Shown in pieces: positions 32,934-35,623 of a DNA stretch of 64,000 nucleotides; positions within the stretch are counted from its first letter, which is position 1; every line of letters begins with the position of its first letter. Source of the stretch: Vibrio crassostreae (GTDB lineage Bacteria; Pseudomonadota; Gammaproteobacteria; Enterobacterales; Vibrionaceae); assembly GCF_024347415.1 (NCBI RefSeq), contig NZ_AP025477.1:1674001-1738000 (forward strand). Direction: 5' to 3'. Position numbers and translations under genes: made by a program. Under the pieces are notes generated by a model, which saw only the letters and a program-made list of their open reading frames with translations, was not told where the DNA came from and ran no database searches.

Positions 32934-33078
32934 GAATTACGCTCCAAAGTTAATAAGTTATTAACACGCGTAAAAGCGTAGACCTAAATAACCATGTGGA
33001 GTGTGATAGATATCTTAATAATTCAATAGATTATAGTGAAAGCAATAGACTGTGATGAAAACGAAATACTTGTTTGAA

Positions 33079-33134
33079 GAGAAAAGAGAAAAGAGAAAAG
33101 AGAAAAGAGAAAAGAGAAAAGAGAAAAGAGAAAA
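33079..33134. repeat. 7-bp tandem repeat array, 8 units of GAGAAAA
   Basis: Eight perfect copies. The array touches the hairpin at 33134-33165, so on the minus strand it supplies the T-rich tail of that terminator and continues beyond it. Any frame read through it is a repeat artefact. Confidence 0.95.
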
Positions 33135-33165
33135 AGCTCTATCGGATTTAATGCCGATAGAGCTT
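33134..33165 (-). terminator. Terminator of the 58-aa gene
   Basis: A perfect 12-bp stem: AAGCTCTATCGG (33134-33145) with CCGATAGAGCTT (33154-33165), 8-nt loop. On the minus strand it is followed by TTTTCTCTTTTC, lying 18 bp after the 58-aa gene stop. Confidence 0.9.
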
Positions 33166-33182
33166 ACTCGGAATTGCCAATA

Positions 33183-33359
33183 CTATGCAGCATTGAGATC
33201 AAACGTCAGTGTTTGTTCTGCAGCACATACTTCAACAGGCCAGCCATAGGATTGGTATTCAAGCGCAAGTTTGTCCGCTACTACGCGAGATACCGTTGCA
33301 GTGATCCACATGCCTTTGCCCATTACTTGATATTTAAGCGTTCTCATTTCCATAGTCAT
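33183..33359 (-). CDS. 58-aa protein of unknown function behind a GacA/VarA box
   Basis: The gene begins at the ATG at 33359, 8 nt after AAAAGGAGAACG, and encodes MTMEMRTLKYQVMGKGMWIT... ending TLTFDLNAA. A start at Met3 (33353) is also possible. It has one Cys, no membrane segment, and a KGMWITATVSRVVADKLALEY core. Evidence that it is real: a strong ribosome binding site, a TATAAT promoter at 33536, a perfect terminator just downstream, and a GacA/VarA palindrome upstream. No family recognised. The ribosome binding site contains GGA, so CsrA control is possible. Confidence 0.75.
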   Translation of the reverse strand: MTMEMRTLKYQVMGKGMWITATVSRVVADKLALEYQSYGWPVEVCAAEQTLTFDLNAA

Positions 33360-33456
33360 CACCGTTCTCCTTTTATATTGGCAGCGCGAAGTCTATAGCA
33401 CCTCTGAGGGCTGAAATTTCGAATCAAGCTCAAATGCTTTATAAAATGGCTCACTG

Positions 33457-33473
33457 TTTGAGCCTGGCTCAAA
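33457..33473. repeat. Palindrome TTTGAGCC-T-GGCTCAAA in the leader of the 58-aa gene
   Basis: An 8-bp perfect inverted repeat with a 1-bp centre. It would lie in the untranslated leader (about 170 nt) of the 58-aa gene transcript. It could be an operator or an RNA hairpin. Confidence 0.7.
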
Positions 33474-33535
33474 ACTCAATCAACTAAGGGTAAACGGTTG
33501 TATTTTGGAAGCGAAGTCACCATTTAAGTGTCTGT

Positions 33536-33541
33536 ATTATA
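33536..33541 (-). promoter_or_regulatory. -10 element (TATAAT) of the 58-aa gene
   Basis: A perfect TATAAT on the minus strand. At 17-bp spacing the -35 would be TTTCTG (33559-33564), a poor match, as expected for an activator-dependent promoter. The VarA box lies 5 bp upstream of that. Confidence 0.6.
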
Positions 33542-33569
33542 ATTGAATTAAAATTTAACAGAAAAGCAA

Positions 33570-33587
33570 TGTAAGAGATCTCTTACA
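33570..33587. promoter_or_regulatory. Perfect GacA/VarA (UvrY) box
   Basis: TGTAAGAGATCTCTTACA is an 18-bp perfect palindrome and matches the GacA-box consensus TGTAAG-N6-CTTACA exactly. Its centre is about 49 bp upstream of the predicted start of the 58-aa gene transcript. The near-identical box at 35606-35623 belongs to the CsrB-type sRNA. The rest of 33360-33885 holds no gene I can support. Confidence 0.85.
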
Positions 33588-33885
33588 ACATTACCAGAGA
33601 TTGCACTAGGTGAAAAATTTTCACTAGAAGCCAGATTTTTGTGGCGATTGTGTGCGTTTTTAGTTGCGCTGTTGAAGCAAGATTTGTTTAGTTTTGTATG
33701 TGAAATATTCTAATTTATTTAGCGTATGGTCCTGCTTTTAAATCCAAATCACAGTTTTATATGTTGCTGTGTTTCTTTTATTCAAACCGATACGCTATTT
33801 GATTTTGGTCATTAACCTTTCGCTCATTAGTTTGCACTATCTATACGTGTTCTGTTCCACATAAACGAGATGTATAGAGGTCCTT

Positions 33886-34623
33886 ATGACTAATCCAACC
33901 AAAACCGATCGTAAAGTCACGATCGGCAGCTATATCGCACTCGCTTTCGCGATTGTGTTCTTTTCAGGCTTAATGCAGTCCAATGAATGGTATGGAGTGT
34001 TCGATTTTACAACGCTCAACGGCTCATTCGGTAAGGTCGCTTACGATGTGAGTGAAACGGCCGATGGTATTCAAGCAGCAACGACGTCACTGCGTGGTAA
34101 AGGCGGTAGTGGTGCTCGTGACGGTTTCATTTTTGCTTTGACACTTATTCCGACCGTGATGTTTGCACTAGGTATGATCAACGTACTTGAGCATTACGGA
34201 GCATTGGATGCAGCTCGTAAACTGCTGACACCTCTGCTTCGCCCTCTGATGGGTATTCCGGGTAACTCAGGCTTGGCACTGATCGCTTCTTTGCAAAGTA
34301 CCGATGCGGGTGCAGCGATGACACGTCAGTTGAAAGACGAAGGGCATCTAACTAAGCGTGAAACTGATGTCTTCACCATGTTCCAGTTTACGGCGGGTGC
34401 AGCGATCGTTAACTTTTTCTCTTCAGGTGCCGTGCTGTTCACTCTAACGGCGATGGATGGTTCTTTAGCGGTAACATCGTCAATTGGCTTGGCTGTCGCT
34501 GTGATGTTCATCTTTAAGTTTGTCGGCGCGAACCTGTTCCGTATCTACCTGAATATTACTGAAGGCAAAGAAGACAAACCAAAATCAGACAAAGAACAAA
34601 AACTGGAAGAGGAAGTAGCATAA
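33886..34623 (+). CDS. yjiH: YjiH family nucleoside-recognition (SpmA-like) membrane protein
   Basis: This 245-aa inner-membrane protein has about five or six hydrophobic segments. It carries the Gate/nucleoside-recognition domain: GFIFALTLIPTVMFALGMINVLEHYGALDAARKLLTPLLRPLMGIPGNSGLALIASLQSTDAGAAMTRQL. Related to SpmA; the E. coli YjiH-YjiG pair has the same order. Substrate unknown. It ends in a charged Lys/Glu tail overlapping yjiG by 1 bp (TAATG), indicating coupling. Confidence 0.85.
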   Translation: MTNPTKTDRKVTIGSYIALAFAIVFFSGLMQSNEWYGVFDFTTLNGSFGKVAYDVSETADGIQAATTSLRGKGGSGARDGFIFALTLIPTVMFALGMINVLEHYGALDAARKLLTPLLRPLMGIPGNSGLALIASLQSTDAGAAMTRQLKDEGHLTKRETDVFTMFQFTAGAAIVNFFSSGAVLFTLTAMDGSLAVTSSIGLAVAVMFIFKFVGANLFRIYLNITEGKEDKPKSDKEQKLEEEVA

Positions 34624-35133: not shown

Positions 35134-35171
35134 AAAAAAGGAAACCCCGTTTGGCTTTCACCAAACGGGGT
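35134..35171 (-). terminator. csrB terminator
   Basis: ACCCCGTTTGG (35144-35154) pairs perfectly with CCAAACGGGGT (35161-35171). On the minus strand it is followed by TTTCCTTTTTT. Confidence 0.93.
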
Positions 35172-35445
35172 CTATTCTTTTCGTAGCCATCCTGCTACTG
35201 CGCGTTACTTATCTTTCAATAGGTAACTAGTGCTCCCTGCATCGTTCCTTGACGTGGCTAAATCCTTTAACCTATCCAATTCATCGCCTTCCTAGCGGTG
35301 TCCTTGCAAACTCATCATCCTGATAAGCGACTCTATCCTAGAGCATAACTTCCTTGCTGATAACTCATCCTAAGCCATCAAATCTTCATCCTGAAGATAC
35401 CTAATCCGTTAGGCTTTTTCCTGTTCCTGCCAACTCCCTGTCGAC
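35134..35445 (-). ncRNA. csrB: CsrB-family small RNA (CsrA-sequestering)
   Basis: Read on the minus strand, about 312 nt contain 16 GGA motifs, many as AGGA or CAGGATG in small hairpin loops (for example TCTTCAGGATGAAGA). The 5' end GTCGACAGGGAGT is identical to the start of E. coli CsrB. A strong terminator closes it. No open frame covers this stretch on either strand. CsrB RNAs bind many CsrA dimers and so relieve CsrA repression; in Vibrio there are several copies controlled by VarS/VarA. Promoter and VarA box are annotated separately. Confidence 0.93.
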
Positions 35446-35605: not shown

Positions 35606-35623
35606 TGTGAGAGATCTCTTACA
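35606..35623. promoter_or_regulatory. GacA/VarA box upstream of csrB
   Basis: TGTGAGAGATCTCTTACA differs from the perfect box at 33570 in one base. Its centre is about 170 bp upstream of the csrB start, like upstream activating sites of rsmZ and csrB in other genera. An extra half site CTCTTAC lies at 35593-35599. Confidence 0.85.

Follow-up and report, generated by a model that had tools for sequence, protein, structure and literature searches.

Organization of the locus

The window analyzed here (the whole 64,000-nucleotide stretch of Vibrio crassostreae contig NZ_AP025477.1, positions 1,674,001 to 1,738,000) contains a short gene on the minus strand and, upstream of it, an 18-bp palindrome resembling the sites of VarA, the Vibrio GacA/UvrY (Table 1). 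This palindrome (the box, read here from 33587 to 33570) and the start codon of the gene are separated by a 216-bp region. Divergent from the small gene are two genes that are tentatively named yjiH and yjiG, based on a 'Gate' domain and a match to PRK10519. The csrB gene (35135-35416) is convergent with yjiH-yjiG, and nhaD is the neighbor on the opposite side of the small gene.

The preliminary description of this DNA had noted both a GGAGA ribosome binding site and a terminator for the small gene, and both are present. The terminator (a 12-pair stem with a T-rich tail) has a folding z-score of -5.4, with 0 of 200 shuffles equally good. A tandem GAGAAAA-type repeat follows it directly (approximately 33080-33135). 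Just upstream of nhaD is a degenerate box-like palindrome with five mismatches (approximately 33003-33020). In relatives this element reads ATTAAGATATCTATCACA. It is located at approximately 3560 in L112 and was found in 9/20 of the yjiH loci examined.

Table 1. Features of the small-gene locus and of the neighboring csrB region (window coordinates)
Feature	Position	Strand	Remarks
VarA/GacA/UvrY-type box, TGTAAGAGATCTCTTACA	33570-33587	.	Candidate upstream activating site, 18-bp palindrome
TATAAT, P1 -10 proposed in the preliminary description	33541-33536	-	Possible secondary promoter
Direct-repeat half T1, TGAGC	33449-33453	-	Probable site of a putative activator; identical in 31/31 orthologs
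Direct-repeat half T2, TGAGC	33428-33432	-	21 bp from T1; identical in 31/31 orthologs
CGAAAT element	33416-33421	-	Expected -35 position of P2; CGAAAT in 28/31, TGAAAT in 3/31
TGC before P2 -10	33400-33398	-	Extended -10 form
TATAGA, proposed P2 -10	33392-33397	-	TATAGA 28, TATAAA 2, TATACC 1 (n = 31)
Shine-Dalgarno AAGGAG	33367-33372	-	AAGGAG in 16/31 orthologs, AAGGAA in 7/31
GGAGA	33370-33366	-	Ribosome binding site region
ANGGA motif within Shine-Dalgarno, AAGGA	33372-33368	-	Possible CsrA site
ATGGA motif at start codon	33353-33349	-	Possible CsrA site
ORF including upstream in-frame alternatives GTG 33362 and ATG 33359	33183-33362	-	
Small-protein gene, 56 aa	33183-33353	-	Most likely start ATG 33353-33351; family methionine aligns there
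Intrinsic terminator	33134-33165	-	12-pair stem, then T-rich tail
yjiH-like gene, then yjiG-like gene	33886 onwards	+	Divergent from small gene
CsrB RNA, RF00018	35135-35416	-	Covariance match
Box of neighboring csrB	35606-35623	.	For comparison; one base different from the 33570-33587 box

The small-protein gene

Orthologs of the small gene (E-value of 1.4e-19 or lower) were identified in 31 of 227 genomes of the genus, and relatives at a wider cut-off (E-value of 0.01 or lower) in 79/227. The reading frame is under purifying selection (median dN/dS of 0.133 over 404 scorable pairs of 465) and the gene is real. The preliminary description was thus right to call a gene at this position, although its length of 58 codons probably includes two codons too many. 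The first methionine of the family alignments coincides with ATG 33353, all 31 orthologs have 56 codons from this ATG, and the G056 ortholog, a divergent one, has an open frame upstream of the ATG that contains no methionine, GTG or TTG. Based on these observations, a protein of 56 aa is the best call and ATG 33353, rather than 33359, is most likely the start codon. The gene had also been described as falling below usual gene-calling limits. This is incorrect because relatives are already annotated by NCBI, under names such as 'hypothetical protein'.

The window protein has no match above cut-off to any Pfam, NCBIfam or PHROG profile, and a profile scan of its paralogs gave weak matches for one paralog only. 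A structure model (pLDDT 84) predicts a beta-beta-alpha-beta arrangement, for which no clear structural relative was found. Paralogs of the small protein, such as those at C2:1575801 and C2:482761 of the same genome, share with it the family pattern Y-x3-GxGxW-x4-[VI]S-x3-A-x2-L-x2-EY-x4-W, which was read from 19 aligned sequences. The paralog matches of G083, G123 C21 and G140 have an in-frame stop, and only the part before the stop was aligned.

The transcript of this gene might act mainly as an RNA (either a csr-like sponge or another sRNA), with the frame being incidental. VarA-type boxes usually drive RNAs, and the gene forms a short monocistronic unit with a strong terminator. This interpretation is highly improbable given the strong codon-level constraint (56 codons in 31/31 orthologs, median dN/dS of 0.13). 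In addition, an Rfam search of 33000-33900 gave no match up to an E-value of 1, and only two ANGGA motifs were found by eye from the predicted P2 transcription start (discussed below) to the start codon region.

Sequence and genomic distribution of the box

The box is a perfect example of the form TGTAAG-N6-CTTACA (PMC8523701) and differs in one base from the published VarA consensus TGTG[AC]GAGATCTCT[TC]ACA (PMC6262261). It also differs in one base from the box of the neighboring csrB; both the exact match and this single difference had been pointed out in the preliminary description. It is the sole perfect copy in the 5.80-Mb genome. The gapped consensus alone is a weak criterion. With two mismatches or fewer it has 4 matches in the window, where 2.9 are expected, and 0.49 perfect matches are expected per genome, where 1 was found. 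The full 18-mer, with 1.4e-4 exact copies expected in the genome, is not a chance match; its conservation across orthologs (see below) also argues against chance.

At three mismatches or fewer the 18-mer occurs at nine places in the genome, compared to two for a backwards control. Four of these places precede the four CsrB matches of the genome (three above the Rfam cut-off and one below it at 65.3 bits), four are inside long ORFs, and the last is the small-gene site. Outside long ORFs, the four csr sites and the small-gene box are therefore the only occurrences in the genome. The long ORFs (L014, L024, L026 and L027) are presumed from their translations to be glmS, rpoA, a GntR-type regulator gene and a phosphonate-type permease gene.

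A census of the same type was made in eight relatives with the degenerate pattern (two mismatches or fewer). All of the CsrB matches (31/31) have the box, and so does the small gene in the four genomes (4/4) that carry it. The 18-mer that is located in the glmS-like frame in V. crassostreae recurs in 6/8 relatives (it has one base different in G051 and is absent in G112), and that in the rpoA-like frame recurs in 7/8 (absent in G112). Besides these there were seven singleton matches, six of them with two mismatches and one with a single mismatch. The latter (TGTACGAGTTCTCTCACA, G208 C1:90992-91009) is not near a CsrB match, and its genome lacks the small gene.

Conservation of the box and its linkage to the small gene

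The preliminary description had suggested that conservation of box and gene together be checked across Vibrio. Among the 31 orthologs, the box is present at three mismatches or fewer in 30 and at four or fewer in all 31 (L057 has four); L106, L107 and L110 are the same places as L060, L061 and L057, respectively, and were counted once. The named contigs L001-L011, which partly overlap the numbered genomes, have the small-gene box at three mismatches or fewer in 11/11 cases. The variant bases (TGTGAG, TGTGCG and CTCACA) are those of csr boxes and of the published VarA consensus.

The constraint on the box was estimated from 13 divergent sequences, hand-chosen from the 31 orthologs, in several pairs of which the gene approaches saturation at synonymous sites. 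The box ranks first among 291 upstream 18-mers, with an identity of 0.89. The background, made up of 144 windows located over 130 bp from the start and clear of the box, leaves out the P2 block; it has a mean of 0.55 and a maximum of 0.75. The second-best 18-mers, with identities of up to 0.86, are those of the P2 block. The view that a VarA-type box is conserved together with a genuine small-protein gene is supported.

Among the many paralog matches, 16 loci were examined (L093-L105, L108, L109 and L111), and none of the 16 has a box at three mismatches or fewer in the 500 bp upstream. In L101 (G157) and L102 (G220), the box-like sequence TGTAAGATCTCGATCACA is found approximately 242 bp upstream of the paralog match, with five and six mismatches, respectively. 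This sequence, the closest approach to a box among these loci, is spaced like the real box. It may be either a chance occurrence or a VarA site of another paralog that has decayed or diverged, so some paralogs may not be entirely without the box.

Ortholog and yjiH searches left 88 genomes with yjiH (E-value of 1e-60 or lower) but without an ortholog (119 less 31). Twenty of these were examined, namely the 10 whose yjiH is most identical and 10 selected among the others; 10/20 were aligned to the window. The box (three mismatches or fewer) is absent from the 700 bp upstream of yjiH in 20/20, such that no case of a box conserved without an intact small gene, which the preliminary description had named as a refutation, was found in these loci.

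It could be argued that the box serves the divergent yjiH-yjiG operon and that the small gene is a mere neighbor. The box is 299 bp upstream of yjiH, the distance is constant to 1 bp in 25/31 orthologs (298-299 bp), and the DNA on this side of the box also contains conserved stretches, with 20-bp means of up to 0.86 in 30 orthologs. However, the box is absent in 10 relatives from the same clade with yjiH 95-100% identical (in the 8 of these 10 that were aligned, the DNA upstream of yjiH is still homologous to the window for 149-268 bp), and it is also absent from the 10 more distant yjiH loci. Furthermore, the yjiH side is 5-58 bp shorter in the other six orthologs, and in five of these six the distance from box to TATAGA stays within 1 bp of 172. 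That this spacing is held when the yjiH side changes favors action on the small gene via the proximal promoter, although the argument draws on few independent lineages. Control of yjiH-yjiG as the sole function of the box is quite improbable.

A second possibility is that the box was left over from, or arose as a by-product of, the duplication of the adjoining csrB4 and has no regulatory role of its own. The csrB with its near-identical box is 2 kb away, and a box at three mismatches or fewer is also found approximately 2 kb away in 9/11 named relatives (L002 and L010 end before that point). Such an origin without function is very improbable for three reasons. First, G123 (protein 61% identical, box with three mismatches) has the box and the small gene without csrB beside yjiG, its nearest CsrB match being on the same contig approximately 90 kb from them. 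Second, the constraint on the box is stronger than that on its surroundings. Third, the loci that lack an intact small gene have no box, although 9/20 of them retain the csrB-side box.

Box and gene were lost in deletions of adjacent DNA, for which several end points were observed. Homology to the window ends at 33627 and restarts at 33063 in L114, and ends at 33618 and restarts at 33240 in L117. In G179 (L113) and G192 (L117), which have lost the box and the front of the small gene, remnants of its 3' part can be recognized, at the protein level in the former and as DNA homology only in the latter. Co-loss is consistent with a function for the pair but, because it can be explained by single deletions, does not count as independent evidence of it.

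Two candidate promoters

The preliminary description had proposed that the small gene is transcribed from a promoter next to the box (P1), with a leader of 170 nt. The TATAAT of P1 is present, but it is exact in only 21/31 orthologs and degenerate in the divergent ones (TTAAAT, TACATT, TAAAAA, TTAAAA or TACCAA), a match to the -35 element is absent, and a second candidate (P2) is better conserved. The P2 block (TGAGC-N16-TGAGC-N6-CGAAAT ... TGCTATAGA) is near-invariant and is located approximately 40-100 nt upstream of the coding region. The distance from the end of the box to the TATAGA of P2 is 171-173 bp in 30/31 orthologs and 186 bp in G123, in which the P2 -10 is TATACC. Neither P1 nor P2 was reported by a scan for the sigma-70 consensus. 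From the position of its -10, transcription from P2 is predicted to start at approximately 33385, which would place the center of the box at approximately -193. The decay of the TATAAT, together with the invariance and fixed spacing of the P2 block, predicts a leader of approximately 32 nt, in place of the 170 nt proposed, and a distal box like that of the csr genes.

Part of the P2 block is common to a subgroup of the paralogs. Paralogs L100, L104, L108 and L109 have the direct repeat upstream, with one mismatch, at a similar distance from the start. In L101, L102 and L103 it is found at other distances, and it is absent in the remaining paralogs scanned. The repeat in the form TGA[GC]C-N16-TGAGC, as found upstream of several members of the family, is possibly the site of a family-specific regulator or of autoregulation. 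When the direct repeat and CGAAAT are searched for together, the small gene is the sole perfect match in the genome. The paralog at C2:1575801 is found with two mismatches among four other matches, which is no more than in the control.

P1 and P2 are both compatible with control of the small gene by VarA, and the two explanations overlap, differing only in the promoter. If P1 were used, transcription would start at approximately 33529 and the center of the box would be approximately 50 bp upstream. P1 has a perfect TATAAT that is kept in 21/31 orthologs, the box is directly upstream of its -35 position, and in E. coli UvrY also crosslinks near the csrB promoter (PMC4682653). Nevertheless, the TATAAT decays in divergent orthologs in which the box and P2 persist, the -35 match is missing, and it is P2 that has elements in common with paralogs. 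A P1 transcript would also cross a terminator-like hairpin (33464-33448, minus strand) that lies between the two promoters and overlaps the first TGAGC; such hairpins arise 0.7 times per shuffle on average. VarA control through P1 is therefore unlikely, and P2 is favored by a clear margin.

Comparison with csr genes and other regulated genes

A candidate regulator for the box is encoded in this genome. The UvrY/VarA homologue (76% identity, 214 codons, contig C1) is intact and adjoins a uvrC-like gene. The four csr genes (C1:146839, C1:2708460, C1:3396690 and C2:1709135) have 167-169 bp from the center of the box to the presumed RNA start. For the latter, GTCG was taken as the 5' end of csr RNAs, based on E. 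coli CsrB; by the same analogy, the true 5' end of the CsrB in the window is presumably approximately 29 nt further upstream (GTCGACAGG) than the covariance match. Each of the four genes has an IHF-like site with one mismatch on the same strand, 53-54 bp past the box; in the small-gene region, sites with one mismatch arise in 12-44% of shuffles. Among 41 genomes, at most four CsrB matches were counted per genome. In G123, five CsrB-family matches can be listed, each with a box (C19:202345, C10:19510, C1:319756, C12:50883 and C24:140616).

The small gene resembles the csr/rsm sRNA genes with distal sites (E. coli csrB and csrC, Vibrio csrB1-4) in having the same 18-bp palindrome and core far upstream of a promoter, which for the small gene is the predicted P2. 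In E. coli, the regions crosslinked by UvrY are -222 to -142 of csrB and -223 to -143 of csrC (PMC4682653). In V. tasmaniensis LGP32 there is a VarA site at each of the four csrB genes, and csrB2-4 are strongly reduced in the absence of VarA (PMC6262261). No mention of the small gene was found in the available sections of the LGP32 csrB/VarA study (PMC6262261). The small gene differs from the csr genes in that it encodes a protein, has no IHF-like site that stands out at the csr position and has its own conserved TGAGC repeats in the promoter. With regard to IHF, sites between the box and the promoter were not above shuffles in most orthologs. Among the points that weigh against VarA control of the small gene, the center of the box is approximately 193 bp from the predicted start compared to 167-169 bp at the four csr genes, P2 is not recognized by the sigma-70 scan, G123 departs from the other orthologs in both the spacing and the -10 of P2, and the distance from the box to yjiH is equally constant in 25/31 orthologs.

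VarS/VarA (GacS/GacA, BarA/UvrY) is generally regarded as acting almost entirely through csr/rsm RNAs. The preliminary description had stated that known direct targets of such regulators are almost only these sRNAs. Protein-coding targets have been reported in other genera. In Pseudomonas aeruginosa, direct protein-coding targets of GacA were identified by ChIP-seq and EMSA (PMC6610081). For Dickeya, PMC12724241 cites direct action of TzpA on vfmE through a Gac box, and Marinomonas csrA1 has a box-like sequence upstream (PMC8523701). Direct action of VarA on V. vulnificus acsR was left open (PMC4409781). In E. coli, none of the putative UvrY targets besides csrB and csrC has the 18-nt repeat. 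Regulation of the tested ones was slight or absent, except for a modest effect on cspA (PMC4682653). As is proposed for the small gene, the Pseudomonas, Dickeya and Marinomonas cases have a response regulator of this family acting, or proposed to act, directly on a protein gene. The targets described in the sections of these studies that were available are regulators, enzymes, transporters and the like, whereas here the target would be a short protein with a near-perfect, clade-conserved box. Box-linked protein-coding targets have thus already been reported in other genera, and the small gene would add a Vibrio case.

Proposed model for regulation of the small gene

It is probable, at a good level of confidence, that VarA controls the small gene by whichever promoter. 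VarA binding, the direction and sign of regulation and the transcription start site are predicted from the DNA sequence. The proposed model is as follows. Phosphorylated VarA would bind the palindrome as a functional distal site and would activate leftward (minus-strand) transcription of a single gene encoding a 56-residue protein, most likely from the gene's own promoter in the P2 block. As the direct repeat of P2 is common to a paralog subgroup without boxes, an existing family promoter, with a putative activator at the TGAGC repeats, may have gained a csr-type VarA site in one lineage, approximately 190 bp from the start site. The signal that controls the CsrB RNAs would thereby also control the small protein.

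CsrA may add a further layer to this regulation. If the AAGGA and ATGGA motifs are CsrA sites, then induction of CsrB would also relieve translational repression of the small gene, and VarA activation together with relief from CsrA would form a coherent feed-forward loop. CsrA sites of this type are typically found in hairpin loops. The fold of the leader is no better than that of shuffles, so this proposal has no structural support.

These results suggest that in a group of marine Vibrio the VarS/VarA system directly controls production of the small protein. It is speculative and on balance unlikely that the 56-residue protein serves the VarS/VarA-Csr circuit as a dedicated protein arm, which is produced alongside the CsrB RNAs and binds and tunes a component of the circuit (for example CsrA, VarS/VarA or an RNA-decay factor). 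If it were true, the protein would provide a feedback or feed-forward step that is not provided by csr RNAs alone. The small-gene box was found in one census with every csr gene, and it may provide a precise handle on direct protein output of this system in Vibrio. The locus would also illustrate how a promoter already present at one gene of a family can acquire a box.
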